A stretch of DNA of 64,000 nucleotides, taken from contig NZ_QGTR01000001.1 of the NCBI RefSeq assembly GCF_003182275.1, forward strand, positions 782,130-846,129. The letters are read 5' to 3'. Positions 13,230-34,560 of the stretch are shown one piece after another. The translations under genes were made by a program, and so were the position numbers. The stretch comes from Hoeflea marina (lineage in GTDB: Bacteria; Pseudomonadota; Alphaproteobacteria; Rhizobiales; Rhizobiaceae). The stretch's first letter is position 1; each line of letters begins with the position of its first letter. Below the pieces are notes generated by a model. That model ran no database searches. It was not told where the DNA came from and saw only the letters and a program-made list of their open reading frames with translations.

Positions 13230-13568
13230 TCAGACTGCCTTTCCGGTGTCGGCCTTGCGGGCGTCGGCCCGGGCCACAAGACCTGCGGCCACCGATTTGC
13301 TTCAACCTCGCCCCAGTCATGCATATAGTTATGACATGCGCATATTGCAGGTGCGAAGAAGGGGTGCGGCAATTTGGGAGTCTGCGCCGGTGCCTCGTCG
13401 CGCGCCCGCTGTGTCGGCCACTCTCCGGCCTTGGCCGCAATGTTTGAAATCCGCCAAGTCCCTCCGGCGCCGGCCGGAATTAATCCTGTTCCGCGCTCCC
13501 GCACCCTTCCAAAAATGCGAAAATTGTGTTCTTATTGAATGAATGTTCAGCAAACAAGGACAAGCGAT
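13230..13568. other. divergent intergenic region, patatin operon / Rieske oxygenase
   Basis: About 340 bp between two divergent operons. The left half is GC-rich, with only shadow frames. The right end (13500-13560) is AT-rich and holds the operator-like palindrome at 13533-13551 and the AAGGA ribosome site at 13556-13560. A patch with repeated ATGCATAT/ATGCGCATAT elements around 13318-13345 may be part of the patatin-operon promoter. No RNA gene was recognised. Confidence 0.4.
13533..13551 (+). promoter_or_regulatory. operator-like palindrome, copy 1
   Basis: The sequence TATTGAATGAATGTTCAGC is almost identical to the reverse complement of 22835-22853 (one mismatch in 19) and matches the arms of 16355-16373. 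It has GAA and TTC half-sites separated by six bases, as in TetR/BetI-type operators. It overlaps the most upstream ATG (13539) of the Rieske gene and lies just before the AAGGA site of the GTG start at 13569. Binding by the TetR protein at 21243-21920 is inferred. Confidence 0.6.
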
Positions 13569-14774
13569 GTGACCGCAATTGCTCGAAATACCTCCGTTCC
13601 GGAACAGTGGGATCGCCGGGGTCTTCCGGGCTGGTGCTATCACAGCGAGGAATTGCTGCTGCTGGAAAAGACACTTGTCTTCCGCAGCCACTGGCAGATC
13701 GCCTGCCACGTCTCCGATGTGCCCGAGCCGGGCAATTACCTGGCGCTCGACGTCATGGGCGAGCGGGCACTGATCCTGCGCGACCAGGACGGCGTGGTGA
13801 ACGCCTTCCACAACATCTGCCGGCATCGCGGCTCGCGCCTCGTCGCCGACGAGACCGGAACCTGCAGGAACGCGCTGGTCTGTCCGTTCCACGGCTGGGT
13901 CTACAATCTCGACGGCACCTTGCGCGGCCCTGCCCGGCCGAAGAGCTTTCCGCCGCTCGACAAGGACGAATTCGCGCTCAAGCGCATCGAGAGCGAGATC
14001 TGGAACGGCCTGGTCTTCATTCGCTTCCGGCCGGGCCCGCAGCCCGACGTGGCGTCCCTGATGGCGCCGTTTGCCGACGAACTCGGCCACTACGGCATCG
14101 CGGACATGGTGCCGACGGAAGATGGCATCTGGTCGCAGATCTCAGACGTCAACTGGAAGTCGGTGCGCGACGTCGACAACGAGGGCTACCACGTCGCCAT
14201 GGCCCACCCTGCGCTGCAGGATCTCTACGGCCAGACCTATTACGACGAGCCTTTCGTCAACGGCCTGTCGCGATCCTTCGCCACCTGGAACTCCAGGCGC
14301 GCGCGGCGCTGGAGCGTGCGCAATTATGTCGGCATCGCCGAGGAAAATGCCCGCCTCCCCGAAAGCCACCGCAAGGCCTGGGCCTATTTCGGCATCTTTC
14401 CGAATGTCGTCATCGGCGTGACCCCGGAATGCGTCCAGTTCTATCAGGAATTCCCGATCTCGGTGTCGAAGTCGCTGTTGCGCGGCGGCATCTACCGCTA
14501 CCGCGACGAGACCCGGCGGGCGAAGGCCGCGCGCTATCTGGCCGCCCGCATCGATCGCGAGACCCAGGCCGAGGACGTCCAGCTCACCGTCTGGTCGAAC
14601 GAGGCGATGCGCTCGGACGCCTTCTCGGGTTTCTACCTCTCGGACCTCGAATACGGGGTGCGCAGCCACCACGACCATCTGCGCGCGCTGCTGCCGGTCA
14701 TCACCCTCGCCGACAGCCCCGGCGAAGGCAATATCGCCACCACCAATGCGCGGATGCTCGCCGAGCGCGGCTGA
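13569..14774 (+). CDS. Rieske-type aromatic-ring-hydroxylating/N-demethylating oxygenase, large subunit
   Basis: About 401 aa. The Rieske [2Fe-2S] site is clear: CRHRGS (near residue 84) and CPFHGW (near residue 105). The mononuclear iron site follows as DNEGYHVAMAHP, with two histidines near residues 208 and 213. The family includes ring-hydroxylating dioxygenases and the quaternary-amine monooxygenases (choline, carnitine, glycine betaine and stachydrine demethylases). In this amine-rich context the latter type is more likely. No reductase gene is adjacent. GTG 13569 has AAGGA 8 bp upstream; ATG 13539 is also in frame but lies inside the operator-like palindrome and lacks a ribosome site. 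A strong terminator follows. The substrate is unknown. Confidence 0.85.
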   Translation: MTAIARNTSVPEQWDRRGLPGWCYHSEELLLLEKTLVFRSHWQIACHVSDVPEPGNYLALDVMGERALILRDQDGVVNAFHNICRHRGSRLVADETGTCRNALVCPFHGWVYNLDGTLRGPARPKSFPPLDKDEFALKRIESEIWNGLVFIRFRPGPQPDVASLMAPFADELGHYGIADMVPTEDGIWSQISDVNWKSVRDVDNEGYHVAMAHPALQDLYGQTYYDEPFVNGLSRSFATWNSRRARRWSVRNYVGIAEENARLPESHRKAWAYFGIFPNVVIGVTPECVQFYQEFPISVSKSLLRGGIYRYRDETRRAKAARYLAARIDRETQAEDVQLTVWSNEAMRSDAFSGFYLSDLEYGVRSHHDHLRALLPVITLADSPGEGNIATTNARMLAERG

Positions 14775-14805
14775 GCCGGACCACCCGGCTCCGAGGCAAT
14801 CCAAG

Positions 14806-14838
14806 AAAAGGCCGGGATCACTCCCGGCCTTTCTGTTT
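14806..14838. terminator. Rho-independent terminator, bidirectional
   Basis: AAAAGGCCGGG / CCCGGCC-TTTTC hairpin with a six-base loop, placed between the convergent Rieske and aminotransferase genes. The A run on one side and the T-rich tail on the other suit termination from both directions. Confidence 0.8.
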
Positions 14839-14856
14839 GATGATCGAGGCGGACCC

Positions 14857-16281
14857 TCAGCCGTTCCACAGCCCGTCGCGCGTGAGATCGTCCATCGTCT
14901 GCCTGATGCTGGCGGAGAGGATTTCCGTCATGCGGTCGATTTCCGGTTCGGTGATAATCAGCGGCGGCGAGATCACGCACATGTTGATCAGCGGCCGCAC
15001 CAGAAGGCCCCGCTCCTGGCAATGCGCGTCGATGCGCTTGCCGACTTCAACATCGAGCGCCAGCGGATTGCGGTTGACCTTGTCGGCGACGCAGTCGACG
15101 CAGGCCATCAGACCCATGCCGCGCACTTCGCCGACCAGCGGCAGTTCCTCCAGCGTCTTCAGGCTCTTCTGGAAATAGGGCGAAATCGCCCGTGCATGCT
15201 CCAGCAGACCGTCCTCCAGAATGTCGAGATTCTTCAATGCCACCGCGCAGCCGATCGGATGACTGGAATAGGTCAGCCCGTGGGCAAACATCGCCTCGGG
15301 ATGGTTGGAGCGGCGGAGTTCCTCCAGCAGACGCGCCGAGATCATCACACCGCCGAGCGGAAAATAGCCCGAGGTAACCCCTTTGGCGAAGGTGATCATG
15401 TCCGGCTCGATGCCGAAGACGTCCTTCGAGGCGAACACATGACCGAGCCGTCCGAAGGCTGTCACCACCTCGTCGGCGATGTAGAGAATGTCGTTGGCGC
15501 GGCAGAGCTCGAACATGCGTTTGACATAGCCGGCCGGCGGCACGATGACGCCGCCCGAGGCCATGATCGGCTCGGCCACATGGGCGCCGATGTTCTCGGC
15601 GCCGACCCGCTCGATCACCTGGCGGAACTCATCGACCAGGAAATCGGCGAACTGCGCCTCGTCCATGCCGGAGGGACGCTGGAACGGATTGGGGCACGAC
15701 AGCATCACCACCTTGTCGGACAGACTGTCCATCCAGTTGAGGTCGCGTGGCCGTCCGTTGAGAGACGCCGACAGGTAGGTCGAGCCGTGATAGGCGCCCT
15801 GGCGCGAGACGATGATCTTCTTCTCCGGCCGGCCCCGGACATTGTTGGAAAACTGCATGAAGCGCAGGGCCGTTTCCACTGCCGACGAGCCGCCGGTGGT
15901 GAAAAAGACATGATCGAGATCGCCGGGCGCGTGCGCCGCCAGCCGTTCCGCCAGCTGCAGCGACGGCGCACTGGTGGTGTACCAGGGCGAACTGTAGGAC
16001 AGTGCCATCGCCTGGTCGCGCATCGCGTCGGCGAGTTCGGCGCGGCGGTGACCGACATTGACGCACCACATGCCCGCCGGCCCGTCCATCAGCTTGCGGC
16101 CCGCCTCGTCGGTGACGTAGATGCCGTCGCCGGAGCCGATCGGGCCGAGGAGCGTGGTGCCGATGCTGCCGGCCTGCGGCCATGGCTGCACCAGCGGCCG
16201 TTGCCGATCGACGCGCGCTGCGTCAAGCTTCGGTCTGGCGGAAGTCTGGTGGTCGGCCGGCTTGGGCGAATGGGCTGTCAT
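14857..16281 (-). CDS. class III PLP-dependent aminotransferase (omega-amino acid type)
   Basis: About 474 aa, fold-type I class III aminotransferase. Seen are GSGDGIYVTDEAGRKLMDG, the PLP-phosphate loop FFTTGGSSAVETALRFM, the Asp of ILYIADEVVTAFGRLG, and the Schiff-base lysine in FAKGVTSGYFPLGG. The C-terminal VRPLINMCVISPPLIIT is typical. The group includes taurine, beta-alanine and putrescine:pyruvate aminotransferases, so a primary omega-amine or amino acid is the expected donor. ATG 16281 (ACGGAGATACGGC upstream) was preferred over a longer frame starting 42 bp upstream. It is divergent from the ABC permease genes, and the shared region carries operator copy 3. The substrate cannot be decided. 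Confidence 0.87.
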   Translation of the reverse strand: MTAHSPKPADHQTSARPKLDAARVDRQRPLVQPWPQAGSIGTTLLGPIGSGDGIYVTDEAGRKLMDGPAGMWCVNVGHRRAELADAMRDQAMALSYSSPWYTTSAPSLQLAERLAAHAPGDLDHVFFTTGGSSAVETALRFMQFSNNVRGRPEKKIIVSRQGAYHGSTYLSASLNGRPRDLNWMDSLSDKVVMLSCPNPFQRPSGMDEAQFADFLVDEFRQVIERVGAENIGAHVAEPIMASGGVIVPPAGYVKRMFELCRANDILYIADEVVTAFGRLGHVFASKDVFGIEPDMITFAKGVTSGYFPLGGVMISARLLEELRRSNHPEAMFAHGLTYSSHPIGCAVALKNLDILEDGLLEHARAISPYFQKSLKTLEELPLVGEVRGMGLMACVDCVADKVNRNPLALDVEVGKRIDAHCQERGLLVRPLINMCVISPPLIITEPEIDRMTEILSASIRQTMDDLTRDGLWNG

Positions 16282-16354
16282 GCCGTATCTCCGTGTGTTT
16301 TTCTGGATCGGGTCTCGAAACAACCCGATGTTTTTTCATATCTAAATATATCCG

Positions 16355-16373
16355 TATTGAATATCCGTTCAAT
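16355..16373 (+). promoter_or_regulatory. operator-like palindrome, copy 3
   Basis: TATTGAATATCCGTTCAAT contains perfect arms ATTGAA and TTCAAT with a six-base centre, the same geometry as copies 1 and 2. It lies in an AT-rich divergent promoter region, 74 bp upstream of the aminotransferase start and about 140 bp upstream of the first permease gene. It could control both. Confidence 0.6.
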
Positions 16374-16512
16374 CAAAATCTGGAAGTTTCGCTTGATTTG
16401 ATCGTCAAACTGTTGTCATCATTGGACAACGCTGATGCCTCATTGCCGACGGAGCACCGCCTTTGCGCATGCCGCATCTTCAGACTTGGGCCGATTCGAC
16501 GGGTGCCCGGCC

Positions 16513-17412
16513 ATGACGGCCGGCGCCACGGTCCCGGCGGCGCAGTCCCGGCGCTGGCGCGAGAGCGACGAGGCCCGCGGACTGGCGCTCATCTCCCCCA
16601 CTCTCCTCTATGCAATAGCGCTGTTGCTGCTGCCGGTGATGATCGTCATTCTCTACAGCTTCTGGTCCCAGGATTACCTGACGATCGACCGCACCTTCAC
16701 GCTGAAGAACTACCAGGAGGCGCTGTTCCAGCCGATCTATCGCGACCTCTTCCTGCGCTCGCTGTCGATCTCGCTGGTGGTCAGCGTCACGACCGTGCTG
16801 ATGGCCTATCCGATCGCCTGGTACATCTCCTTCCATGGCGGCCGGAACAAGAACCTCTGGCTGTTCCTGGTCACGATCCCATTTCTCACCAGCTACCTGC
16901 TCCGGGTTCTGTCCTGGAAGGTGATCCTCGGCTATGAGGGCGTGCTGAACACCGGCCTGATGGCTTCCGGGCTGATCCACGAACCGATCACCTCGCTGCT
17001 CTACAATTCCAATGCCGTGGTGATCACCCTGGTGCACAGCTGGGTGGCCTTCGCCATCCTGCCGATCTATGTGTCGCTGGAAAAGATAGACCGCTCGCTG
17101 ATCGAGGCCGGCCGCGATCTCGGTGACACCGCGCTGCAGAGTCTGATCCGGGTGGTGCTGCCGTTGTCACTCCCTGGCGTGATCTCGGCCTTCCTCATCG
17201 TCATGATTCCGACGGTCGGCGACTATGTCACGCCGAAGCTCGTCGGCGGCAAGGACGGGGTGATGATCGCCACCGCCATCCAGGTCAATTTCGGCCGCGC
17301 CGCCAACTGGCCGCTCGGTGCGGCGCTGTCGGTCACCACCATGGTGCTGGTCTCCGCCGCAGCCGGCATGATCGTGCTCGGCTTCCGCGCGCTTGTCAGG
17401 TCGGTGCGATGA
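16513..17412 (+). CDS. ABC transporter permease, PotB-like
   Basis: About 299 aa with six hydrophobic helices. The cytoplasmic EAA-type loop is IEAGRDLGDTALQSLIRVVLPLSLPGV near residue 200, which contacts the ATPase. The first TM is LLYAIALLLLPVMIVILYSFW. It belongs to the spermidine/putrescine-type permease family, which imports polyamines or similar cationic compounds. ATG 16513 is chosen because the residues encoded upstream look non-native; an in-frame ATG at 16435 exists and neither has a strong ribosome site. It overlaps the second permease gene by 4 bp. The transported compound is probably the amine degraded by the neighbouring enzymes (inference). Confidence 0.87.
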   Translation: MTAGATVPAAQSRRWRESDEARGLALISPTLLYAIALLLLPVMIVILYSFWSQDYLTIDRTFTLKNYQEALFQPIYRDLFLRSLSISLVVSVTTVLMAYPIAWYISFHGGRNKNLWLFLVTIPFLTSYLLRVLSWKVILGYEGVLNTGLMASGLIHEPITSLLYNSNAVVITLVHSWVAFAILPIYVSLEKIDRSLIEAGRDLGDTALQSLIRVVLPLSLPGVISAFLIVMIPTVGDYVTPKLVGGKDGVMIATAIQVNFGRAANWPLGAALSVTTMVLVSAAAGMIVLGFRALVRSVR

Positions 17413-18224
17413 CGGCCATCCTCTCCCGAGTCCGCTGGCTGCCGGTCTATCTGACGCTGTTCATGGTGTTCCTGTATTTCCCCATCCTGCTCTTGCCGCT
17501 GTTCTCCTTCAACGACGCGGCCACCGCCAGCTTCCCCCTCACGGGCTTCACAACCCGATGGTACACCGCGCTCGCCGGCAATGACGTCATGCTGGGGGCC
17601 GCCTGGAACAGTCTCGTCGTCGGGCTCACGGTCTCGATCATCACCACGCTGCTTGCCATCTGCGCCGCCCGCGCGGTCACCCGCTACCGCTTCCGCGGCC
17701 AGCGCCCGGCCACCGGGCTGATCATGGCGCCGCTGTTCCTGCCCGAGATCATCGTCGCCGTCTCGCTGCTCATCGTGGTGCTGCAACTGGGTCTGCAGCT
17801 GTCACTCCTGACCATCGTTCTCGGCCAGATCGTCTTCTGCCTGCCCTATTCGATGTCGGTGCTGATGGCGGGTTTCGATGGCTTCGACCGCAGCCTCGAG
17901 GAGGCATCGCTGGATCTTGGCGAGACCGCCTTCGGCACGTTCCGCAGGGTGACGCTTCCGGTGGTCGCGCCGGCAATTCTCGCCAGCCTGCTGGTCAGCT
18001 TCACCGTCTCGCTTGACGAGTTCATCCTCGCCTTCTTCCTCTCCGGCACGTCGCCGACCCTGCCGGTCTATATCTGGGGCCAGTTGCGCTTCGCCGCCAA
18101 GCTGCCCGAGGTTCTGGCACTGGGATCGATCATGATGGTCGCCTCGGTGCTTCTGCTCTCCGCCGCCGAACTGTTCCGCCGCAATGCCGAACGCCGCCTC
18201 CAAGCCAGGGAATCCAAGTCATGA
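17409..18224 (+). CDS. ABC transporter permease, PotC-like
   Basis: 271 aa, second inner-membrane permease of the same importer. The N-terminal TM is LTLFMVFLYFPILLLPLFSF, and the EAA loop is LEEASLDLGETAFGTFRRVTLPVVAPA around residue 160. Helices such as LIMAPLFLPEIIVAVSLLIVVL follow the PotC pattern. It overlaps the upstream permease and downstream ATPase genes by 4 bp each, so the three are translationally coupled. Confidence 0.9.
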   Translation: MTAILSRVRWLPVYLTLFMVFLYFPILLLPLFSFNDAATASFPLTGFTTRWYTALAGNDVMLGAAWNSLVVGLTVSIITTLLAICAARAVTRYRFRGQRPATGLIMAPLFLPEIIVAVSLLIVVLQLGLQLSLLTIVLGQIVFCLPYSMSVLMAGFDGFDRSLEEASLDLGETAFGTFRRVTLPVVAPAILASLLVSFTVSLDEFILAFFLSGTSPTLPVYIWGQLRFAAKLPEVLALGSIMMVASVLLLSAAELFRRNAERRLQARESKS

Positions 18225-19315
18225 CCGATGAGCCGATGATCCGGATCGAGGGCCTGTCGAAGGCCTATGGCGAGTTCCTGGCGCTCGACGATGTGTCGCT
18301 GACCATCCGGGAAGGCGAATTCTTCTCGCTGCTCGGCCCCTCCGGCTGCGGCAAGACCACGCTGCTCAGGCTCATCGCCGGCTTCAATGCCCCGACCGCC
18401 GGAACCATCGCCATTGACGGCAAGGCTAGCACGGGGCTGAAGGCCAATCAGCGTCCGACCAACATGGTGTTCCAGAACTACGCCATCTTTCCGCATCTCG
18501 ATGTCGCGGAAAATGTCGGCTACGGCCTCAAGCGGCTCAGGCTCAGCCGCGCCGAGGAGGCACGGCTGGTGCAGGAGGCGCTGGACATGGTGCAACTGCC
18601 CGATCTCGGCCGCCGCAGGGCCAATGAGCTCTCCGGAGGTCAGCGCCAGCGGGTGGCGCTCGCCCGCGCCCTGGTCATGCGCCCCAAGGTGCTGCTGCTG
18701 GACGAGCCGCTCTCGGCGCTCGACAAGAAGCTGCGCGAGGAGATGCAGGCCGAACTGCGCGCCCTCCAGCAGCAGGTCGGAATCACCTTCGTGCTCGTCA
18801 CCCATGACCAGTACGAGGCGCTGGCGCTGTCTGACCGGGTCGCCGTCATGTTCAACGGCCGCATCGCGCAGATGGACACGCCGATGCAGCTCTACCAGCA
18901 CCCGGTCACCCGGCAGGTCGCAGATTTTCTCGGCGGAATGAATTTCCTCGACAGCCGCATTCTCGACGAGACTGGCGAACGTCTCACCGTCGAAACCGAG
19001 CGCTTCGGCCGGTTGACGCTGGCCAAGCCTGCCGGGTTTGCGGCGGCCGGCGGCCGCGCCACCGTCGGCATCCGCCCCGAACGGCTGCGCGTCCTCTGGG
19101 ACGACGAGCGCGCCGAGCACGAGATCACCGGCACGGTGGCCAGCCGCGCCTACTTCGGAGAGACCACCAGCCTCGCGGTCAGGGTCGAAGGCCTCGATGC
19201 GCCGCTGTCCATTGTCGAGACCAACAATTTCGGCGCCGACGGCCTGCTGGTCGGAGCCGAAATCCGCCTTGCCTACGATCCGGATGCCCTGGTGCTGATG
19301 TCCGACCTTCGCTGA
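18221..19315 (+). CDS. ABC transporter ATP-binding protein, PotA-like
   Basis: 364 aa, full-length PotA type. Walker A GPSGCGKTT (near residue 43), Q-loop MVFQNYAIFPHLDV, signature LSGGQRQRVALARAL, Walker B VLLLDEPLSALDKKL and the H-loop VLVTHDQYEAL are all present. The C-terminal TOBE domain starts at about residue 285 (VGIRPERLRV). It powers import by the two permeases encoded just upstream. The cognate binding protein is probably the minus-strand gene at 20163-21227. Confidence 0.93.
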   Translation: MTDEPMIRIEGLSKAYGEFLALDDVSLTIREGEFFSLLGPSGCGKTTLLRLIAGFNAPTAGTIAIDGKASTGLKANQRPTNMVFQNYAIFPHLDVAENVGYGLKRLRLSRAEEARLVQEALDMVQLPDLGRRRANELSGGQRQRVALARALVMRPKVLLLDEPLSALDKKLREEMQAELRALQQQVGITFVLVTHDQYEALALSDRVAVMFNGRIAQMDTPMQLYQHPVTRQVADFLGGMNFLDSRILDETGERLTVETERFGRLTLAKPAGFAAAGGRATVGIRPERLRVLWDDERAEHEITGTVASRAYFGETTSLAVRVEGLDAPLSIVETNNFGADGLLVGAEIRLAYDPDALVLMSDLR

Positions 19316-19475
19316 ACCCACCCTCCATGCAGCAGAAAACCTCGGAGCTTTCGAGATTAAGTTGATCGATTGGGTCGACGATGATTCAAAAAAAGGCATC
19401 CGAGGCCTGAATGGAAGCGCTATTTGCAACCCGACCATCCGTGACAATGAACATCTGCTGCGTTAGCTTCCGTCC

Positions 19476-20063
19476 ATGATAGGCGGACACGACGAAAATC
19501 CTCCCGGGCTCTCTCACGTAATCATACTCAACGGGGCAGGCAGCGTCGGCAAAAGTTCAACGGCACGCGCCATGCAGGCAATTGCTCGCGTGCCCATGCT
19601 CCATGTATCGATGGACACCTTTGTAGAAATGATGCCGGAGCATCTGTTCGGCCACCCCGACGGCCTCGTTTCCGAAAATGTAGGCGGACGAGAGCCCGCC
19701 ATTGCCCTTCGCGTAGGCCATGTACTGAAGCGAACACTGGCAGGCATGCGTCATGCCGTTGCTGCCATGGCTGCCCAAGGCAATCACCTCATCGTCGATG
19801 AAGTCATGATCGGGCGCGGTATCGAGGCGGAGTATCGCAAGCTGTTGTCGGGCTACAACGTAAAAATAGTTGGTATATTTGCTCCTCTGTCCATTCTCGA
19901 GGAGCGCGAAAGAATGCGCGGCGACAGAGAGATTGGCCTTGCCCGATGGCAGTTCGAGCGTGTTCATGTCGGCAGAACTTACGATCTGGAAATCGATGCT
20001 GCCACCCCGGAGGAGAATGCAACGCGCATCCTGCAAGCCTTTGGCCTCTTGTCGGCTGCCTGA
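19476..20063 (+). CDS. chloramphenicol phosphotransferase-like (CPT) P-loop kinase
   Basis: 195 aa. The P-loop is GAGSVGKSSTARAMQ near residue 24 and is followed by HVSMDTFVEMMPEHLFGH, a pattern of the CPT-like family typified by the chloramphenicol 3-O-phosphotransferase of Streptomyces venezuelae. NHLIVDEVMIGRGIE and ARWQFERVHVGRTYDLEIDA also fit, the latter matching the conserved R-x-x-x-H...YD region. The physiological substrate of most CPT-like proteins is unknown. It lies between the permease operon and the binding-protein gene and seems less GC-rich than its neighbours, which might reflect transfer. Antibiotic resistance should not be assumed; phosphorylation of an imported hydroxylated compound is another option. 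Confidence 0.78.
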   Translation: MIGGHDENPPGLSHVIILNGAGSVGKSSTARAMQAIARVPMLHVSMDTFVEMMPEHLFGHPDGLVSENVGGREPAIALRVGHVLKRTLAGMRHAVAAMAAQGNHLIVDEVMIGRGIEAEYRKLLSGYNVKIVGIFAPLSILEERERMRGDREIGLARWQFERVHVGRTYDLEIDAATPEENATRILQAFGLLSAA

Positions 20064-20094
20064 GGGCGAATTCTCGGACGGCCTCTCAGCAAAA

Positions 20095-20124
20095 AAAGGG
20101 CGCCCCGCCAGGCGCCCTTTCGTT
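20095..20124. terminator. Rho-independent terminator, bidirectional
   Basis: Perfect ten-base arms AAAGGGCGCC / GGCGCCCTTT with a six-base loop, flanked by an A run on the left and T residues on the right. It separates the convergent CPT-like gene and the substrate-binding protein gene and should work in both directions. Confidence 0.85.
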
Positions 20125-20162
20125 GTCCGACAGAATTATGTTCTGCCGCCACGTACGGCCGC

Positions 20163-21227
20163 TTAGTAGCCGGCCTTGATCTTCTCGAATTCGGCGATCA
20201 TCTTCTGCTTCAATTCGACCGGAACCGGTGACTGGAACAGGGTGTTGGCGGTGAACTTGTCCAGATTGTCATAGCCGGCCGCCGCCAGCACATCTGGCGC
20301 CACCGAGGCCATGCCCTTGCCGTTGCCGTGGCCGTAGCCCCAGGAATCCACCAGGTATGGCGAAACCGCCGGATCGGTCACCGCGTTGAGATAGTCATAC
20401 ATCTTGGCTTCGTCGCCGGTGCCTGACTTGAGCGCAACATAGCCGCAGACCCAGGTCGACAGGCCTTCGCTGGTGTCGCGGTTGATGGCGGCATCCACAT
20501 TGTCGCCCTTGAGCGTGGTCACCGTCTCGTTCCAGGCCCAGGCCAGATCGACTTCGCCGCTCGCCATGGCGCCGCTGATGTCCGTGTTGTCGGTCCAGTA
20601 CATCCGGACGTTCTTGTGCACCTCGCGCAGGAAGGCGGAGGCCGCCTTGAACTGTTCGTCGGTCATCGCCGACCAGTCCTTGAGCCCCATCACCAGGCTT
20701 GCCAGCGCATAGGCGTCATCGACATTGTCACCGATGGAAACACGATCCTTGAACTTCGGATCGGCAAAGGCCTTGAGCGATGTCACCTCTTCCGGCTTGA
20801 TCTTGTCGGCGCGGTAGGTGAGCACCGTGTTGCCCCACTCGAAGGGGATGAACCAGGCGGTGCCGTCGGCCGACGTCATCAGGTCCTTCATGGCCTGGAA
20901 CCCCGGCATGGTGTCGTTCCAGTTGGTGAGTTTGGCCGTGTCGAGCGGCTTCAGCAGGCCTGCGTCGCGCCACTTGGTCACCGATTGCGAACACGGATGC
21001 GCCACATCCGCCTTGTAGCCCGAAGTCAGCTTCTGGAAAGCCTCGTCCTCATCGCCGAAGAAGGAGAAGTCGGGCGAACCGCCATGTTTCTCGACATAGG
21101 CCGGATGAAACGCCGGGTCCTCGTATCCGGCCCAGTCGAACACCGTCAATCCATCGGCGCGGGCCACCGCTGTGCTGGCCAAAAGCGCCAGGGCTGCTGC
21201 ATATCGGACATGGGATCGTTTCATCAT
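20163..21227 (-). CDS. periplasmic substrate-binding protein, PotD/PotF-like
   Basis: 354 aa, group of the spermidine/putrescine-binding proteins. A Sec signal peptide (AAALALLASTAVARA) ends near residue 24. The mature protein starts LTVFDWAGYEDPAF, the usual first strand in this family. Later come FIPFEWGNTVLTYRADKI and DLAWAWNETVTTL, which line the ligand cleft. AAGGAG stands 7 bp before ATG 21227. It follows the TetR gene by 15 bp in an operon of methyltransferase, tetR and this gene, and is encoded opposite to its probable permeases. Its ligand would be a cationic amine, but the exact one is not predictable. Confidence 0.9.
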   Translation of the reverse strand: MMKRSHVRYAAALALLASTAVARADGLTVFDWAGYEDPAFHPAYVEKHGGSPDFSFFGDEDEAFQKLTSGYKADVAHPCSQSVTKWRDAGLLKPLDTAKLTNWNDTMPGFQAMKDLMTSADGTAWFIPFEWGNTVLTYRADKIKPEEVTSLKAFADPKFKDRVSIGDNVDDAYALASLVMGLKDWSAMTDEQFKAASAFLREVHKNVRMYWTDNTDISGAMASGEVDLAWAWNETVTTLKGDNVDAAINRDTSEGLSTWVCGYVALKSGTGDEAKMYDYLNAVTDPAVSPYLVDSWGYGHGNGKGMASVAPDVLAAAGYDNLDKFTANTLFQSPVPVELKQKMIAEFEKIKAGY

Positions 21228-21242
21228 GACTGTTCTCCTTGA

Positions 21243-21920
21243 TTAGGTCGGACGCTCCTGAGTGGGCGCCGTTTCGGCGAAATGCTTCGGGAAAACCGAA
21301 GCGAGAAAACTGCCGGCGCTCTGATGCGCCGCTTCGCGGGTCAGGCCGTCGTCCATCATCAGACGGAACCACAGGCCCTCGAGCATGGCGCACATCGCCA
21401 GCGTCAGTGCGGCCGAATCGTAGCTGTAGCCGCCTTCCTGCTTCAAGATCTCGACGATGGACTGCATGGTAACCTGGTAGGTTCTGTCCTGGGCGCCGCA
21501 GAGCGCCTTGTAGGTCGGGCGTGACTTCGCCTCGCCCCAGAAGGCGCACCAGGCGGCGAGCTTGCGTCGCGTGCAGATCTTGCGGTCGAAGTCGGCCGCC
21601 ACCAGCGCTTGCAGCTGGTCGGACGGGCGGACACCCGCTTTCTCAAGTGTCGCCTCCCAATGCCCGGCATATTCCTCGGTCATGAATTGCAGCGTGGCAA
21701 CGAGCAGCTTTTCCTTGCTCTCGAAATGGAAGTTGACGATGCCGCGCGACATCTCTGCGCCATCGGCGATGTCTGCCAGCGTGGTTTCCGAGTAGCCGCG
21801 CTTGGCAAGGCTGTCGATCGTCGCCTCGATCAGCTGCTGGCGGCGGGTTTCCTTCGATGCCTTGCGGCCCTTCTGGCTGCCGTCGGCCTGCGTGGCGCGT
21901 GGTCGTGCTGTATCGCTCAT
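21243..21920 (-). CDS. TetR family regulator, BetI-like
   Basis: About 225 aa. The N-terminal helix-turn-helix runs RRQQLIEATIDSLAKRGYSETTLADIADGAEMSRGIVNFHFESKEKLL. The effector domain carries ICTRRKLAAWCAFWGEAKSRPTYKAL, which closely resembles the choline-sensing repressor BetI. ATG 21920 is selected because AGGGACG precedes it; the frame extends 11 codons upstream into the methyltransferase gene. It is embedded in the locus whose promoters carry the ATTGAAT-N4-GTTCA palindrome, including the promoter of its own operon, so it is the prime candidate for their repressor, with autoregulation. The inducer is probably a quaternary or other amine (inference). Confidence 0.85.
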   Translation of the reverse strand: MSDTARPRATQADGSQKGRKASKETRRQQLIEATIDSLAKRGYSETTLADIADGAEMSRGIVNFHFESKEKLLVATLQFMTEEYAGHWEATLEKAGVRPSDQLQALVAADFDRKICTRRKLAAWCAFWGEAKSRPTYKALCGAQDRTYQVTMQSIVEILKQEGGYSYDSAALTLAMCAMLEGLWFRLMMDDGLTREAAHQSAGSFLASVFPKHFAETAPTQERPT

Positions 21921-21949
21921 CAATTCGTCCCTGGGAAAGGCCGCGGCGA

Positions 21950-22756
21950 TCATGACGCCACCGCCTGCGGTTTATGCCCGCGCAGATGCGTCGGGCAGTG
22001 CTCACCGCTGTCTAGCACTTTCTGCATGGCCGTCCATGTGGCAATGTTCTTGGCCACATAGGCCTCGCCGACGGCGTCGACCGCCGTCTGGCGCAACGGC
22101 CCCTTGAGCCGTTCGAGTTCACCGCGCGCCACGTCGCGGTACCAAAGATTGCGATTGACCGTGGTCACGCCGACAAATCCTGCCCGCCGCATGGCCGACT
22201 GGTAGCGGGCCGGAGAAGCCATACCGAAGCTCAGCCCTTCCGCCTTGATATAGGATACCATCTCCGCCGACAGCGGCCCGTCGTCTGAGCGAAGCCAGTC
22301 CGACGCTGCAAAGATGCCGCCGGGACGCAGAACCCGGAAGATGTCGGCGAACACCGCCTCCTTGTCGGCGACATGGATCAGGGCATCCTTGGAAAACACC
22401 AGATCCAACGAAGCGTCGGCAAAGGGCAGCGGTCCCGGGGCCGACTGCACGAAGCCGACCCGGTCGGACAATCCATCGGCATCCGCCCGCCGCCGCGCCG
22501 CCTCGATGACAGGCACCTCGACGTCGAAGCCGGTGACGTGCCGCGGTTGGTGCTTGCGGGCGATATGCAGAGTGATCCCCCCGGTGCCGCAGCCGATGTC
22601 GAGCACATCCAGTCCGGAGAGGTTCAGCCCGGCCAGAACCCGGTCGACTTCATCCGGTCCGCCCGGCGACAGATAGCCCTCGCCCCACAGCACTTCCAGG
22701 AAGCGGATCGCCGTGTCGTCATATTCCGGTTCTGGTCCCGACTCTGCCGGCTGCAT
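21950..22756 (-). CDS. SAM-dependent methyltransferase, phosphoethanolamine-methyltransferase-like
   Basis: About 268 aa, class I methyltransferase. Motif I is [16 protein letters not shown] near residue 52, the acidic loop is [16 protein letters not shown], and the post-motif region [31 protein letters not shown] is typical. The start [15 protein letters not shown] resembles the catalytic domain of plant-type phosphoethanolamine N-methyltransferases, which suggests an N-methyltransferase acting on a small amine. ATG 22756 was chosen since GGAG lies 8 bp before it; two upstream ATGs are in frame. It is the first gene of the minus-strand operon with tetR and the binding protein, and it is divergent from the flavoprotein genes. 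Confidence 0.8.
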
Positions 22757-22834
22757 GCCTGCTCCGCTCCATTGCCGCACCATGGCGGCGACAGCCAAAA
22801 TCCTACAGAAGTATCAGCCCATTGCAACATACTT

Positions 22835-22853
22835 GCTGAACAATCATTCAATA
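22835..22853 (-). promoter_or_regulatory. operator-like palindrome, copy 2
   Basis: Read on the minus strand this is TATTGAATGATTGTTCAGC, differing from copy 1 by a single base in 19. It lies in the 154-bp divergent promoter region between the methyltransferase-tetR-binding protein operon and the flavoprotein-GcvT operon, so one site could control both. The regulator is probably the TetR protein encoded about 1 kb away. Confidence 0.6.
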
Positions 22854-22910
22854 TGGATGGACAAGTGGCTGCATTCCATGTCATTTTTTCGGAGAACCGA
22901 AGGACGTGAG

Positions 22911-24530
22911 ATGCAAAAATATGACGTGATCATGATCGGCGGCGGCCACAATGGCCTCGTCGCGGCGGGATATCTGCAGCGAGCCGGGCTGAAAGTCGTG
23001 GTGCTGGAAAAGAACGACTGGGTCGGCGGCGCGGCCACCAGCCGGGAACTCACCGAAGGCTTTCTCTATTCCAACTGCTCCTATGTCTGTTCGCTGTTCC
23101 GACCCGAGATCATGCGCGACCTGGAACTGCCCAGACACGGCCTGCAGATCATCTCCTATGACGGCGGCGCGGTGTTCGCCCGCAATGGCGATTACCTCGG
23201 CACCTACCGCGATCACGAATCGCACCGGCGCGAGTTCGCCCGCTTCTCGCCCCGCGACGCCGAGGCCTATGACCGCTATTCGCGCGACGTCACCCGCCAG
23301 TGCCGCTTCATCCAGCCGCTGTTGATGCGCACCGCACCCGATCCGTTCAGCTTCAGGCCGCGCGACATTTCCGAACTCGTCTATCTCGCCCGCAAGTTCG
23401 GCGACATGGGGGCTGCCGACATGGCGGCGATGATGCGCTTCTGGACCATGTCGATCTCGGACTATCTCGACGAGTATTTCGAAAGCCCGGTCATCAAGGC
23501 GTCGCTGGCGATCTCCGGCATCATCGGCACCGCGCTGGGCCCGAAATCGCCGGGCACCGCCTATGTGCTGCTGCACCACTACATGGGCGAGGTGGACGGC
23601 TCGGTCGGCGCCTGGGGCTATGCAAGAGGCGGCATGGGTGCCGTCACCAAGGCGCTGGCGGCCTCGTTCCAGTCGGTGGGCGGCACGATCCTCACCGGTT
23701 CCGAGGTCGACAAGGTCATCACCCGCAACGGACGTGCCATCGGCGTGGCGCTCGCCAATGGCGACGAGGTGCATGCCGATCGTGTGGTCTCCAATGCCGA
23801 CGTCAAGCGCACCTTCCTCAAGCTCGTCGACGAGAAGGACCTGCCCGATCGCTTCGTCCACCGGGTCAGGCATTTCAAGATGCGCGGCTCCTCGGGCAAG
23901 CTCAACATCGCGCTCGACAGCCTGCCGGAGTTCCCTGCCCTGCCGAAGGATTCCCGCTGCCTGCGCGGCGACATGCATTTCACCGACGATCTCGAGCGCA
24001 TGGAGCGCGGCTACGACGATTGGAAGGCCGGGCGTTGGTCGGCCGACCCGTTCATCGACATGATGATCCCCACCACGCTCGACCCGACCATGGCGCCGCC
24101 CGGCAAGCACTTCATGAGCTGCTTCGTGCAATATTGCCCGCCGCAGGTGGAGGGCCGCGACTGGACCGACGCCGACCGCGACGCATTCGCCGAGACGGTG
24201 GTGAGCCAGATCTCGGACTACTCGCCGGGTTTCCGCGACCGCATCCGCCACATGGAGGTGCGCACGCCGCGCGAACTCGAAGCCGAAGTCGGCCTCACCG
24301 AAGGCAACATCTTCCAGGGCGAACTGACCTTCGACCAGCTGCTGTTCAACCGTCCTGTGCCCGGCTACGCGCAATACCGAAGCCCGATCGACGGGCTCTA
24401 TATCTGCGGCTCCTCGACCCATCCCGGCGGCGGCGTCATGGGGGCACCGGGGCGCAACGCCGCGGCCGAAATTTTGCGCGACGCGAAGATGAAACCGGCG
24501 CAGATGCGGGAGGCCCACGATGTCCTTTGA
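22911..24530 (+). CDS. NAD(P)/FAD-dependent oxidoreductase, PYROXD2/phytoene desaturase-like (paralogue 1)
   Basis: 539 aa. The N-terminal dinucleotide-binding site is IMIGGGHNGLVAAGYLQRAGLKVVVLEKND, with the GGGHNGL form seen in the PYROXD2 subgroup of the phytoene-desaturase/amine-oxidase superfamily. The C-terminal FAD-contact motif is LYICGSSTHPGGGVMGAPGRNAA. Such proteins are often annotated as phytoene desaturases, but no carotenoid gene (crtB, crtE, crtY) is present and the setting is amine metabolism. ATG 22911 has AAGGACGTGAG directly upstream. It overlaps the next, related gene by 11 bp. An amine or amino-acid dehydrogenase role is inference. Confidence 0.82.
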   Translation: MQKYDVIMIGGGHNGLVAAGYLQRAGLKVVVLEKNDWVGGAATSRELTEGFLYSNCSYVCSLFRPEIMRDLELPRHGLQIISYDGGAVFARNGDYLGTYRDHESHRREFARFSPRDAEAYDRYSRDVTRQCRFIQPLLMRTAPDPFSFRPRDISELVYLARKFGDMGAADMAAMMRFWTMSISDYLDEYFESPVIKASLAISGIIGTALGPKSPGTAYVLLHHYMGEVDGSVGAWGYARGGMGAVTKALAASFQSVGGTILTGSEVDKVITRNGRAIGVALANGDEVHADRVVSNADVKRTFLKLVDEKDLPDRFVHRVRHFKMRGSSGKLNIALDSLPEFPALPKDSRCLRGDMHFTDDLERMERGYDDWKAGRWSADPFIDMMIPTTLDPTMAPPGKHFMSCFVQYCPPQVEGRDWTDADRDAFAETVVSQISDYSPGFRDRIRHMEVRTPRELEAEVGLTEGNIFQGELTFDQLLFNRPVPGYAQYRSPIDGLYICGSSTHPGGGVMGAPGRNAAAEILRDAKMKPAQMREAHDVL

Positions 24531-26073
24531 TGCCATCATCATCGGCGGCGGCCACAACGGCCTCACCGCGGCGGCAACGCTTGCAAAGGCCGGCCGCAAG
24601 GTTCTGCTGCTCGAAGCCGCCGACACGGTCGGCGGCGGCGCAAGCACGGTCGAATTCGCTCCCGGCTTCCGCACCAGCGGCCTCGCCCATATCATCAACC
24701 GGCTCGATCCGGACGTGGTCAAGGCAATCGGCCTTGACACCTCGGGCTTTGAGGCCACCGCCATGCCGACGGCGATCCTGTCGGAGACATCCGAAGCCAT
24801 CGTGCTGCGCGGCGCCTATGGCGAGAGCATTGACGGTGTCGGCAAGGAGGAGGCAGCCGCCTTCGCCGCGCTGCGCAAGAAGCTCCTCTTCCACGCAGGT
24901 CTGCTCAGGCGCTTCATGAAGAAGCCGCCGCCCGAGCTCGGCAACACCAGCCTCAAGGATCTGGCGGCACATGCCGCCACCGGGTTGAAGCTGCTGAGCC
25001 AGGGTCGCGAGGAAGCCCGCGACGTGCTGCGCATGTTGCTGATGAATGTCGCCGACATATCCGACGAGTTCCTGACCGACGACCGGCTCAAGGGCCTCCT
25101 CGCCTTCGACGCGACGCTCGGCCTGCATCTGGGACCGCGTTCGCCGACATCGCTGATGGGGCTTTATTATCGTCTCACTGGCGAGGCCTTAGGTGCCAGC
25201 GGCGGCCAGTTCCTGCCCCGGGGCGGCATGGGTGCCGTGGCGCAAGCCTTCGCCGAGGCGGCCACGGCCGCCGGCGCCACCATCCGCACTGCCTCTCCCG
25301 TTCGTCGCATCATCGCCAATCGCGGCCTTGCCGGCGGCGTGGAGCTGGAAGATGGCGAAATCCTGATGGCATCGACCATCCTCTCTGCCATCCATCCGCG
25401 CACGACCTTCCACCATCTCGTCGATCCCGCCGATACGCAGACCGGTCTCTCCCGCGCGATCGGCCATATCCGATCGAACGGCGACGTCGCCAAACTCAAC
25501 CTGGCGCTCGACAAAGTGCCGCAGTTCCAGGGCCTTTCGGAGGCCGACCACAAGGGCCGGCTGGTGATCGCGCGCTCGATGAACCATGTCGAAACGGCGT
25601 TCAACCCATCGAAATACGGCGAATATTCGCCGGACCCGGTGATGGAGATCACCCTGCCCTCGCTGTCGGACCCGAAGCTCGCCGACACCGGCTGCACGCT
25701 CTCTGCCATGGTGCAGTTTGCGCCCTATGCCCTGCGCGAAGGCTGGGAATCCGGCAAGCCGAAATTCCTCGAGATCGTGCTCGATGGCCTTGAGCGCCAC
25801 GCCCCCGGCCTGCGTGCAAGCGTCGAGCATGCCGAACTGCTGACGCCCGCCGACATCGAGACCCGCTACCGCATGCCCGGCGGCCATTGGAGCCACGGCG
25901 AAATGCAGCCCGACCAGTTGCTGTTCAACCGTCCGGTGCATGCCGCCGCGGGCTATTCGACACCGCTCGAAGGCCTGTATCTCGCCAGCGCCGGTTCGCA
26001 TCCCGGCGGCGGCATTTCCGGCCTGCCGGGCCTGCTGTCCGCCCGCCACATCCTCGCAGGAGGCAGCCGATGA
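24520..26073 (+). CDS. NAD(P)/FAD-dependent oxidoreductase, PYROXD2/phytoene desaturase-like (paralogue 2)
   Basis: 517 aa, clearly related to the preceding gene product. It has IIIGGGHNGLTAAATLAKAGRKVLLLEAAD at the N-terminus, the central FLPRGGMGAVAQAFAEA, and LYLASAGSHPGGGISGLPG at the C-terminus. The shared MQPDQLLFNRPV-like block (QLTFDQLLFNRPV in the partner) supports tandem duplication or an obligate pair. It overlaps paralogue 1 by 11 bp and the GcvT-like gene by 4 bp, so equal and coupled expression is expected. The two may form a heteromeric enzyme. Substrate unknown. Confidence 0.82.
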   Translation: MSFDAIIIGGGHNGLTAAATLAKAGRKVLLLEAADTVGGGASTVEFAPGFRTSGLAHIINRLDPDVVKAIGLDTSGFEATAMPTAILSETSEAIVLRGAYGESIDGVGKEEAAAFAALRKKLLFHAGLLRRFMKKPPPELGNTSLKDLAAHAATGLKLLSQGREEARDVLRMLLMNVADISDEFLTDDRLKGLLAFDATLGLHLGPRSPTSLMGLYYRLTGEALGASGGQFLPRGGMGAVAQAFAEAATAAGATIRTASPVRRIIANRGLAGGVELEDGEILMASTILSAIHPRTTFHHLVDPADTQTGLSRAIGHIRSNGDVAKLNLALDKVPQFQGLSEADHKGRLVIARSMNHVETAFNPSKYGEYSPDPVMEITLPSLSDPKLADTGCTLSAMVQFAPYALREGWESGKPKFLEIVLDGLERHAPGLRASVEHAELLTPADIETRYRMPGGHWSHGEMQPDQLLFNRPVHAAAGYSTPLEGLYLASAGSHPGGGISGLPGLLSARHILAGGSR

Positions 26074-27287
26074 CCCTCGATCCGATCCGCAAGGCCGAGC
26101 AGGAGCATTTTCGCACGCTGCTGATGCCGACGCCGTTCCACCCCCGCCTGGCGCCGCTGGTCGAGACCCAGTCCTGGTACGGGTGGGCAGGCATGCTCGT
26201 GGCGCATTCGGTGTTCGACGAGGAGCTCGAATATTTCGCCATCCGCTCGACGGCGGCGCTGTTCGACATCTCGCCGATGATCAAATACCGCATCACCGGC
26301 CCGGATGCCGAGCGATGCCTCAACCGGCTCACCGTCCGCGACGTGAGCAAGCAGAAGGTCGGCCGGGTGCAATACACCGCCTGGTGCGACGACGAGGGCC
26401 ATGTGCTCGACGACGGCACACTGTTCCGGCTTGGCGCGGCAGACTTCCGGCTCTGCTGCCAGGAGAGGCACCTGCCCTGGCTTCTCGACACCGCCCGCGG
26501 CATGGACGTCGCGATCCGCGAGGAAACCCAGGAGATCGCCGGACTGGCGCTGCAGGGGCCGACCAGCTTCGCCGTGCTGTCCAAGGCGGGTTTTGATGGC
26601 GTCGAGGCGCTGCGCCCGTTCCAGCTGGCGGAATTCGACCATGATGGCGGCAAGGTGATGATCTCGCGCACCGGCTTCACCGGCGATCTCGGCTACGAGC
26701 TGTTCGTCCCGGCGACGGCGGCGCTGAGCCTCTGGGACAGGCTCTGGGAGGCAGGCCGGCTGCACGGGCTCAACGCCATCGGCTACAATGCCCTCAACCG
26801 GGCGCGCATCGAGGCCGGCTTCATCGTCGCCAACGGCGATTTCGTCACTGCCGAGACGGCCCTGCGCGCCGACCGGGTGCGCATGCCCGACGAGATCGGC
26901 CTCGACTGGCTGGTCGATGTCGACAAGGTCCAGTTCAACGGCCGCAGCGCCATTCTCGCCGCCCGCAAGAACGGGACGCTGAAGCACGTGCTCGTGGGGC
27001 TGGAGATCGACGACAATACGCCGGCCGAGGCGGCAATCGTCTATCACGGCAACAAGCGCGAGGTGGGGCTGATCTCGGCGGCCATCTGGTCGCCGACGGC
27101 CAAGCGCAACATCGCCATCGCCAGCCTCGAGCGGCCCTACGGATCGGAAATCCTCGACGATCTCTGGGTCGAGATCTACGCGCTTCGCGAGCTCAAATAC
27201 CACAAGATGATGAAGCGCGCCCGCGTCGTCGAGCGCCCCTTCGTCAAGCTGGCGCGGCGCTCGGCCAATCCGCCGGCGCGCTTCTGA
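26070..27287 (+). CDS. GcvT-like aminomethyltransferase family protein (folate-binding)
   Basis: 405 aa, somewhat longer than GcvT of the glycine cleavage system. The folate-binding T-protein fold is visible: FDISPMIKYRITGPDAERCLNRLTVRDV, YTAWCDDEGHVLDDGTLFRL (with the conserved acidic residues near the folate site), ISRTGFTGDLGYELFVP, and the C-terminal GLISAAIWSPTAKRNIAIASL. Relatives accept one-carbon units from methylated amines onto tetrahydrofolate, for example the C-terminal part of dimethylglycine dehydrogenase. As a separate chain next to two flavoproteins it could serve the same purpose here: flavoprotein oxidises the N-methyl group, this protein captures formaldehyde as methylene-THF. 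That is inference. No gcvP or gcvH is nearby. Confidence 0.85.
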   Translation: MTLDPIRKAEQEHFRTLLMPTPFHPRLAPLVETQSWYGWAGMLVAHSVFDEELEYFAIRSTAALFDISPMIKYRITGPDAERCLNRLTVRDVSKQKVGRVQYTAWCDDEGHVLDDGTLFRLGAADFRLCCQERHLPWLLDTARGMDVAIREETQEIAGLALQGPTSFAVLSKAGFDGVEALRPFQLAEFDHDGGKVMISRTGFTGDLGYELFVPATAALSLWDRLWEAGRLHGLNAIGYNALNRARIEAGFIVANGDFVTAETALRADRVRMPDEIGLDWLVDVDKVQFNGRSAILAARKNGTLKHVLVGLEIDDNTPAEAAIVYHGNKREVGLISAAIWSPTAKRNIAIASLERPYGSEILDDLWVEIYALRELKYHKMMKRARVVERPFVKLARRSANPPARF

Positions 27288-27290
27288 GCC

Positions 27291-27560
27291 ATGGCAGCCG
27301 ATCCGGAAATGGACGCGGAGACACGACGGCAGATGGATCTGGTGGCGACACCGCCCGGCGGAGAATGGTCCGGCCGCGCCCGCTATGCTGCGGCGATGTA
27401 TTTCTACCAGCGCGGCGAGATGCCGGCCGAGGTGCTGGAGGTCTACCGCATCTCCTCCAGGCTTGACGCCGAGGACGCCGTCGACGTGCTCAGACTCTGG
27501 CAGATCGGCACCGATTGGATCGCCCGGATCGAGGCCTGGCGGGCGGCTCATTCGACCTAA
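27291..27560 (+). CDS. small conserved-looking hypothetical protein
   Basis: 89 aa, family not recognised. The gene starts 3 bp after the GcvT-like gene and is surely in the same transcript. The sequence is soluble and acidic, with PPGGEWSGRARYAAAMYFYQRGEMPAEVLEVYRI in the centre and a Trp-rich C-terminal helix (LWQIGTDWIARIEAWRA). No metal-binding or catalytic motif stands out. A structural or accessory subunit of the flavoprotein/folate complex is a possible role. Confidence 0.65.
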   Translation: MAADPEMDAETRRQMDLVATPPGGEWSGRARYAAAMYFYQRGEMPAEVLEVYRISSRLDAEDAVDVLRLWQIGTDWIARIEAWRAAHST

Positions 27561-28561: not shown

Positions 28562-28637
28562 CCCCCTTGCGTAAATCGAAAAACAATCGCCTGCAAGTGG
28601 CGCATCATCCCGGCCAAGAACGAGGAGAAATGACGAT

Positions 28638-31015: not shown

Positions 31016-31025
31016 GGAGCCCGCC

Positions 31026-32189: not shown

Positions 32190-32222
32190 GCGACCACCCA
32201 TGCACCAAGGATCACCACGCCC

Positions 32223-32510
32223 ATGAAACCGGCCATCGCGATCACCTATTGCCGCCAGTGCAACTGGATGCTGCGCGCCGCCTGGATGGCGCAGGAACTG
32301 CTCTCAACCTTCTCCGAGGAACTTGGCTCGGTGACGCTGGTGCCGGACACCGGCGGCATCTTCACCATCGACGTCGATGGCGAGCGGATCTGGGACCGCA
32401 AGCGCGACGGCGGCTTTCCCGACGTCAAGACGCTGAAAGGCAAGGTGCGTGACCGCATCGATCCGGACCGCGATCTCGGACATCTCGACCGCACAAAGGC
32501 AGACGAATGA
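32223..32510 (+). CDS. SelT/SelW/SelH (Rdx) family protein with CxxC
   Basis: 95 aa, thioredoxin-like Rdx fold. The N-terminal strand-loop AITYCRQCNWMLRAAWMAQEL holds a CxxC in place of the Cys-x-x-Sec of mammalian SelW. The end of the fold is GGIFTIDVDGERIWDRKRDGGFPDVKTLK, where the G-x-F-x-V and GGFPD parts are family hallmarks. The biochemical role of bacterial Rdx proteins is unclear (a thiol redox function is assumed). It overlaps the downstream CoA ligase gene by 4 bp, so it belongs to the carnitine operon, which is unusual. Confidence 0.85.
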   Translation: MKPAIAITYCRQCNWMLRAAWMAQELLSTFSEELGSVTLVPDTGGIFTIDVDGERIWDRKRDGGFPDVKTLKGKVRDRIDPDRDLGHLDRTKADE

Positions 32511-34552: not shown

Positions 34553-34560
34553 GGAATGCC

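Follow-up and report, generated by a model that had tools for sequence, protein, structure and literature searches.

The stretch of Hoeflea marina DNA analysed here (contig NZ_QGTR01000001.1; hereafter the window, 64 kb out of a 5.26-Mb genome in 20 contigs) carries a cluster of genes for a Rieske oxygenase (RO), a class III aminotransferase (AT), a Pot-type importer with its substrate-binding protein (SBP), a BetI-like TetR regulator, a methyltransferase (MT), two related flavoproteins (FPA and FPB), a GcvT-like protein and a small protein of 89 amino acids (aa). The genes are linked in relatives and share a palindromic operator. The locus is a conserved regulon. With moderate confidence we propose that it serves the breakdown of a methylated amine, most likely a quaternary one, which would be imported, stepwise N-demethylated and transaminated.

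Genes and operators of the locus

The thirteen open reading frames of the initial annotation were recovered at the same positions and, by family searches, with the same family assignments. Their order is RO (+), AT (−), PotB-PotC-PotA (+), a chloramphenicol-phosphotransferase-like (CPT-like) kinase (+), MT-TetR-SBP (−) and FPA-FPB-GcvT-89-aa protein (+), with three operators in between:

13535..13549, + strand: operator 1, in the RO promoter, TTGAATGAATGTTCA; pattern and palindrome search
13539..14774, + strand: RO, Rieske oxygenase alpha subunit; Pfam Rieske and Ring_hydroxyl_A, nearest PDB entry CntA 6y9c
14857..16281, − strand: AT, class III aminotransferase, NF005447/PRK07036; 693 bits against a cut-off of 618
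16357..16371, + strand: operator 2, between AT and PotB; pattern and palindrome search
16435..17412, + strand: PotB-like permease; family searches, the start may be 16513
17409..18224, + strand: PotC-like permease; family searches
18221..19315, + strand: PotA-like ATPase; family searches
19476..20063, + strand: CPT-like kinase; NCBIfam 100.7 bits against a cut-off of 250
20163..21227, − strand: SBP, distant PotD-like substrate-binding protein; PotD model 67 bits against a cut-off of 582
21243..21953, − strand: BetI-like TetR regulator; BetI model 113 bits against a cut-off of 201
21950..22756, − strand: MT, S-adenosylmethionine methyltransferase, nearest to phosphoethanolamine N-methyltransferases; 5wp5, E 2.3e-33
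22837..22851, − strand: operator 3, between MT and FPA; pattern and palindrome search
22911..24530, + strand: FPA, amine oxidase/CrtI superfamily; family searches
24520..26073, + strand: FPB, 30% identity with FPA; family searches
26070..27287, + strand: GcvT-like protein, nearest to the C-domain of trimethylamine N-oxide (TMAO) demethylase; family and structure-database searches
27291..27560, + strand: 89-aa protein, last gene of the FPA unit; present in 79/80 relatives

The operator-like palindrome that had been reported for three promoter regions is real, as its counts in the window, the genome and relatives show. The window has three copies of the pattern TTGAANNNNNGTTCA (13535+, 16357+ and 22837−) against 0.07 expected, and three or more copies were seen in none of 100 shuffles; genome-wide there are eight copies, and two of a reversed-pattern control. 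The symmetric form TGAAYRNNYRTTCA has six genomic sites, three of them inside this locus, and its control none. Operator 1 overlaps the ATG assigned to RO and the relatives of RO begin further downstream, so that the GTG at 13569 is the likelier start. We read by eye the surroundings of two of the other three genomic palindromes, which hold a TetR gene with glycine-decarboxylase-like coding (region L147) and an ABC ATPase with a TetR gene (region L148). No Rieske reductase was seen at either, and the idea of a further regulon member carrying the reductase is not supported by these two sites.

Linkage and distribution in relatives

Scanning genome contigs with FPA yielded 406 relatives, the best of them in Rhizobiaceae and their kin. 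We retained the 80 best, each with up to 10 kb of flanking sequence either side (11 of these loci fall short by more than 100 bases), and added 20 further regions, three of which are FPA paralogues of 40-41% identity that serve as comparators. Genes in the relatives were called with a simple in-house caller and counted as present at an identity of at least 45%. FPA, FPB and TetR occur in all of the main 80 loci and GcvT and the 89-aa protein in 79 each, followed by SBP (74), AT (69), PotA (67), PotB and PotC (66 each), MT (57) and RO (48). The 20 added regions hold FPA and GcvT (17 each), TetR (15), the 89-aa protein (14), PotA and MT (13 each), SBP (12), AT, PotB and PotC (11 each), and RO and FPB (7 each). 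FPB is low there because the same-genus FPBs (37-39%) fall under the identity cut, and once this is dropped FPB is found in 97 of the 100 loci. PotB and AT were not found within the flanks in 14 and 11 of the 80 loci, respectively. The PotB block lies upstream of FPA in the same orientation in 69 of 97 loci and downstream in the opposite orientation in 8. As a linkage control we used the carnitine genes, which in the window begin 4 kb downstream of FPA, and these occur in 0-3 of the 80 loci. Thus, on the question raised by the initial annotation of whether these genes co-occur elsewhere, they do travel together, with an FPA-FPB-GcvT-TetR core in 79-80 of the 80 loci and a common operator.

In the relatives the palindrome precedes AT (78/80), PotB (74/77), MT (69/70) and FPA (84/97), is rare before PotA (4/82) and TetR (14/95), and was not found before PotC (0/77), SBP (0/98), FPB (0/87), GcvT (0/96) or the 89-aa gene (0/93). 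At RO the count varies with the method because the site overlaps the aligned RO start: it is 13/37 when only the sequence ahead of the alignment start is read, and 34/36 when 40 further bases are read with a looser pattern and an RO identity of at least 60%. Altogether the 100 loci (2.03 Mb) hold 223 palindromes, against 5 after one mononucleotide shuffle per locus. The palindrome also stands at the start of the aminotransferase-flavoprotein unit in two divergent versions (L116 and L118), and none was found in the two Rhodobacterales regions searched (L132 and L133). The regulator itself falls below the BetI models TIGR03384 (112.9 against a cut-off of 201.3) and PRK00767 (109.8 against 118) and exceeds the cut-off for the Pfam BetI-type C-domain (59.7 against 27). 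In Rhizobiales the locus forms a conserved regulon, which its own TetR very probably controls.

The distribution of the system is patchy. FPA at an identity of at least 60% was found in 19 of 61 related genomes (own included), with an adjacent second flavoprotein gene in all 19, one of them cut by a contig edge. Of 299 genomes drawn from the phylum, seven reach E 1e-150, six from the same family (own included) and one from elsewhere in the class. A more distant version (63-65%) is present in 11 of 17 same-genus genomes and closer copies (79-83%) in four genomes of other genera of the family; the copy described here may hence have been acquired horizontally.

Gene content varies between versions. 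A monoamine/putrescine-oxidase-like gene stands ahead of the SBP gene in 35 of 100 loci (e.g. L033:5926-7242) and follows PotA directly in 28 of these. A search for such a gene in the window matched only short stretches of FPA and FPB with the flavin adenine dinucleotide motif; elsewhere in the genome it turned up six weak matches of at most 26.5 bits. The CPT-like kinase (19476-20063), which had been counted among the genes of the system, was rejected as a member because none of the 100 relative regions carries one. It fills the gap between PotA and SBP, where the 28 relatives have the monoamine-oxidase-like gene. One strand of a Fuscovulum ytuae plasmid encodes AT, FPA, FPB, GcvT, two ROs, a binding protein, the Pot ATPase and two permeases, and the run continues with a dimethylsulfoniopropionate-lyase-like protein, an amidohydrolase and an MT that shares 53% identity with that of the window. 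In Parasedimentitalea marina, FPA-FPB-GcvT-AT is accompanied by four Rieske-type genes and by genes of a Pot-type importer. In the G049 version (L116) a GntE-like aminotransferase, FPA, FPB, GcvT, a coenzyme A (CoA) ligase and an aldehyde dehydrogenase stand in a row, and in that of G040 (L118) an aminotransferase, FPA, FPB, GcvT and a CoA ligase; both use PotF-like binding proteins. Four loci (L067, with the same gene families in L075, L076 and L081) have a choline-dehydrogenase-like GMC enzyme and a GcvA-like LysR regulator adjoining RO, some also a hydroxyacid dehydrogenase, and PotB was not found in them. A Shinella sumterensis plasmid (L135:8026-17164) holds an FPA-like flavoprotein (42%) and gcvT within a CoA-type operon with an enoyl-CoA hydratase, a CoA ligase and a 3-hydroxyacyl-CoA dehydrogenase, and a beta-keto acid cleavage enzyme further on; this operon perhaps serves a CoA-linked methyl-amino-acid pathway.

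A candidate pathway for a methylated amine

Among solved structures, RO is nearest to CntA (6y9c) and to the entries 4qup and 3vca, which we take to be the stachydrine demethylase Stc2. It keeps the Rieske C-X-H and C-X-X-H motifs, the 2-His-1-carboxylate ligands and the bridging Glu expected of a group V enzyme. In group V Rieske oxygenases the residue two places ahead of the bridging Glu is described as Tyr or Phe in Va and as Asn in Vb (PMC7948474), and for some members a Cys-X-X-Cys pair near the iron is described (PMC10952381). The aligned cluster ROs read DVDNEGYHV in 44 of 44, and RO scores 126.4 bits with the GbcA model NF058607 (cut-off 670). The initial annotation had placed RO in a subgroup able to demethylate quaternary amines; its nearest solved relatives are indeed quaternary-amine enzymes, but RO, which may work like a group V enzyme, falls outside the signature of the group, and this chemistry is only a candidate for it. 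The gbcA-like protein of the same genome differs from RO in having Asn at the group V site and the Cys pair. A third Rieske oxygenase of the genome (L152, contig 3) has a group-Va-like Tyr and the Cys pair, and its gene has as neighbours one for a protein with a GcvT domain and one that, by eye, looks hydroxyacid dehydrogenase-like.

FPA and FPB belong to the flavin amine oxidoreductase superfamily in Pfam and NCBIfam searches, in line with their earlier description as amine-oxidase relatives. With the carotenoid models both stay below the cut-offs, FPA with 314.8 and FPB with 202.3 for CrtO (cut-off 1000) and with 144.2 and 110.7, respectively, for the CrtI family (cut-off 238.1). The GcvT-like protein exceeds the Pfam cut-offs of GCV_T (192.8 against 25.6) and GCV_T_C (35.4 against 25.9) and is closest to TMAO demethylase (243.9 bits; structures 9q5a/9q59) and GcvT, so that its family call stands. 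Both Asp residues of its LDDGTLF stretch, in which we place the catalytic Asp of GcvT, are kept in 80 of 80 relatives. AT exceeds the cut-off of its model, a family that carries no named reaction there, and the 89-aa protein has no Pfam or NCBIfam match, though it is conserved.

In the proposed pathway the BetI-like TetR would sit on the three palindromic operators until released by a ligand, and SBP with PotABC would take the compound into the cell. RO, with a reductase encoded elsewhere, would oxidise the first N-methyl group, and the others would fall to FPA and FPB as flavin amine oxidases. The GcvT-like protein would hand the methyl carbon to tetrahydrofolate, and AT would convert the leftover primary amine into an aldehyde. 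The overall logic would resemble that from glycine betaine to glycine, with a different oxygenase clade and flavoproteins of the CrtI/PYROXD2 type. We favour demethylation because of the linkage in 80 loci, in two arrangements and with the carnitine control at 0-3/80, together with the conserved operator before the lead genes; because RO is nearest to CntA and the 4qup/3vca entries and keeps their iron ligands and bridging Glu; and because GcvT is nearest to TMAO demethylase and its flavoprotein partners are of the amine oxidoreductase family. Further support comes from the monoamine/putrescine-oxidase-like gene beside SBP in 35/100 loci, from the row of aminotransferase, FPA, FPB, GcvT, CoA ligase and aldehyde dehydrogenase in one version, and from the dimethylamine- and trimethylamine-oxidising genes that follow the cluster in L034 and L035. 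The import and dismantling of an N-methylated or polyamine-like compound put forward in the initial annotation is supported in part, by linkage, operator and the flavoprotein and GcvT families; quaternary-amine demethylation would be a candidate role for RO, and the polyamine label fits the transporter family only.

Several observations weigh against the demethylation of a quaternary amine. In all 44 aligned ROs the group V Tyr/Phe or Asn is replaced by Asp, and Gly and Val stand in place of the Cys pair. No Rieske reductase gene is encoded within the cluster. A PF00970 search of the genome gave two reductases, the gbcB-like one beside the gbcA-like gene and an orphan DmmA-like ferredoxin reductase (contig 2 near 151598, L150), which lies beside a MOSC-domain protein; the latter is a possible partner for the orphan RO. 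Furthermore, RO was not found in 32 of the 80 loci. AT is missing as well from 9 of these and lies at most 1.4 kb from the stretch end in 15, and in the remaining 8, where AT has more than 1.4 kb free beside it, RO is probably truly absent. MT, present in 57/80 loci, does not fit a purely demethylating path. Finally, FPA-like paralogues (38-41%) occur at sites without GcvT or RO, e.g. beside a Sphingobium bile acid:sodium symporter, hence the superfamily alone does not show N-demethylation.

A first alternative, which we think rather unlikely, is that the substrate is a cationic, polyamine-like, non-quaternary amine, which RO would hydroxylate and whose backbone C-N bonds FPA and FPB would oxidise, with GcvT collecting a one-carbon fragment. 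The Pot-type importer, the Asp of RO where group V has Tyr/Phe or Asn, the monoamine/putrescine-oxidase-like gene in 35/100 loci and the PotF-like binding proteins of G049 and G040 would suit such a substrate. SBP, however, is a distant PotD relative, below the equivalog models of PotD (67.4, cut-off 582) and PotF (42.7, cut-off 636), and at the positions of PotD Asp168 and Asp257, presumably polyamine contacts, it has Asn in 93/95 and Cys in 95/95 proteins, so that only the transporter family of the "polyamine-type" importer is retained. At the position of PotD Glu171 it has Asp in 95/95, and its W32, Y35, W232, W259 and Y298 are kept in 23 of 23 aligned proteins, four PotF-like ones included. 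The GcvT-like partner and the BetI-like regulator likewise point to N-methyl groups.

It is improbable that RO cleaves a C-N bond in the manner of CntA, releasing trimethylamine, with FPA, FPB and GcvT processing methylamines and not the carbon skeleton. CntA is the nearest solved relative of RO, and methylamine genes do follow the cluster in places: a DmmA-like reductase and a haem-dependent N-demethylase subunit in L034, a GcvT-like protein and a trimethylamine monooxygenase (over its cut-off) in L035. Such families, however, recur beside only 4-5 of 100 loci, and RO is without the aromatic residue of CntA.

Very improbable is a known pathway in disguise, namely the use of glycine betaine, carnitine or stachydrine. 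RO resembles GbcA, CntA and the Stc2 entry, and a carnitine/gamma-butyrobetaine operon (27575-35343) adjoins the system. By family searches it encodes a GbdR-like AraC regulator, a beta-keto acid cleavage enzyme, carnitine 3-dehydrogenase (771.6 bits, cut-off 592), an acyl-CoA dehydrogenase, a CoA ligase and a crotonobetainyl-CoA-hydratase-like protein, the other proteins lying under their model cut-offs. This operon was rejected as part of the system, since such genes lie near only 2-6 of 100 loci. Moreover, a separate gbcAB-like pair elsewhere in the genome scores 520 and 371 bits (below the cut-offs of 670 and 500), against 126 bits for RO, which agrees with the earlier view that the locus is not gbcAB. 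Beyond the carnitine genes, the window encodes, at 41649-50165, a GH94 protein of 2838 aa that has a glucoamylase-like domain and that we take to be cyclic-glucan-synthase-like.

Very unlikely, too, is that the cluster serves to make or recycle a methylated solute, with MT methylating and the oxidases adjusting its level: MT is nearest to phosphoethanolamine N-methyltransferases (whole-domain similarity to 5wp5 over residues 11-252), nearly all of 61 MTs have a WG[ED]G[YF]LSPGG-type stretch (FG-X-GY-X-S-X-GG-like), and MT shares its operator with FPA and is present in 57/80 loci, but it is missing from 23/80 while the demethylation core stays, and the importer and the class III aminotransferase suggest catabolism.

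The demethylation reading can be carried further, to FPA and FPB as folate-coupled N-methyl-amine demethylases that turn an N-methylated lysine-type or omega-trimethylammonio compound (e.g. trimethyllysine or valerobetaine) into a primary amine, to the same chemistry as the missing function of PYROXD2, and to RO as founder of a third clade of quaternary-amine oxygenases marked Asp-Asn-Glu-Gly-Tyr-His-Val; in this full form it is unlikely. Human PYROXD2 is, we assume, a CrtI-like relative of FPA and FPB. Its variants are tied to N6-methyllysine, dimethyllysine and N2-acetyl-dimethyllysine (PMC9730628, PMC13352909), and it is tied genetically to trimethylamine (PMC8777681). Because of the methyl-lysine ties, trimethyllysine or an omega-trimethylammonio acid would be an attractive substrate.

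If the demethylation reading is true, bacteria would have an extra route for methylated-amine nitrogen and one-carbon units, patchy in Rhizobiales and reaching Rhodobacterales, and genes now annotated by superfamily alone would gain an explanation. With an importer, a repressor and a folate partner in one bacterial regulon, the function of CrtI-like flavoproteins, among which we count the PYROXD2 group, would be open to simple growth and enzyme assays. A Rieske clade with Asp at the cation-recognising position would in turn be a test of ammonium binding in this enzyme family.

Comparison with known systems

Our search of the open PMC literature, with subscription journals and bioRxiv outside its reach, found no description of this gene set, nor did homarine degradation, a lead that we had in mind, match it. 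The importer has the subunit make-up and family of the spermidine/putrescine importer PotABCD and differs in that its subunits lie under the Pot equivalog cut-offs and the ligand-site acids of SBP are altered. Human PYROXD2 would share with FPA and FPB a presumed CrtI-like kinship. The other likeness lies in its methyl-lysine ties; in contrast to the proposed role of the pair, it has no known reaction in what is accessible of those reports (PMC9730628, PMC13352909).

Compared with TMAO demethylase and trimethylamine oxidation, the GcvT-like protein finds its nearest relative there and related genes adjoin the clusters of some relatives, whereas GcvT is here a separate protein with flavoproteins as its oxidising partners. 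CntAB and Stc2, of group V, are the nearest solved relatives of RO and have their iron ligands and bridging Glu in common with it; unlike them, RO has Asp instead of Tyr/Phe/Asn, is without the Cys pair and has no adjacent reductase gene. In the conversion of glycine betaine to glycine, GbcAB acts first, and dimethylglycine and sarcosine are then oxidised with the help of GcvT domains. The order of a Rieske enzyme followed by flavoproteins with GcvT-type folate domains is thus the likeness to our locus. Nevertheless, RO is far from GbcA (126 against 670 bits), the proposed path would end in transamination, and the flavoproteins are of the CrtI type and not of the dimethylglycine/sarcosine oxidase type. 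The proposed system would be a form of methylated-amine demethylation set apart by its unusual pair of flavoproteins and by a Rieske clade of its own.

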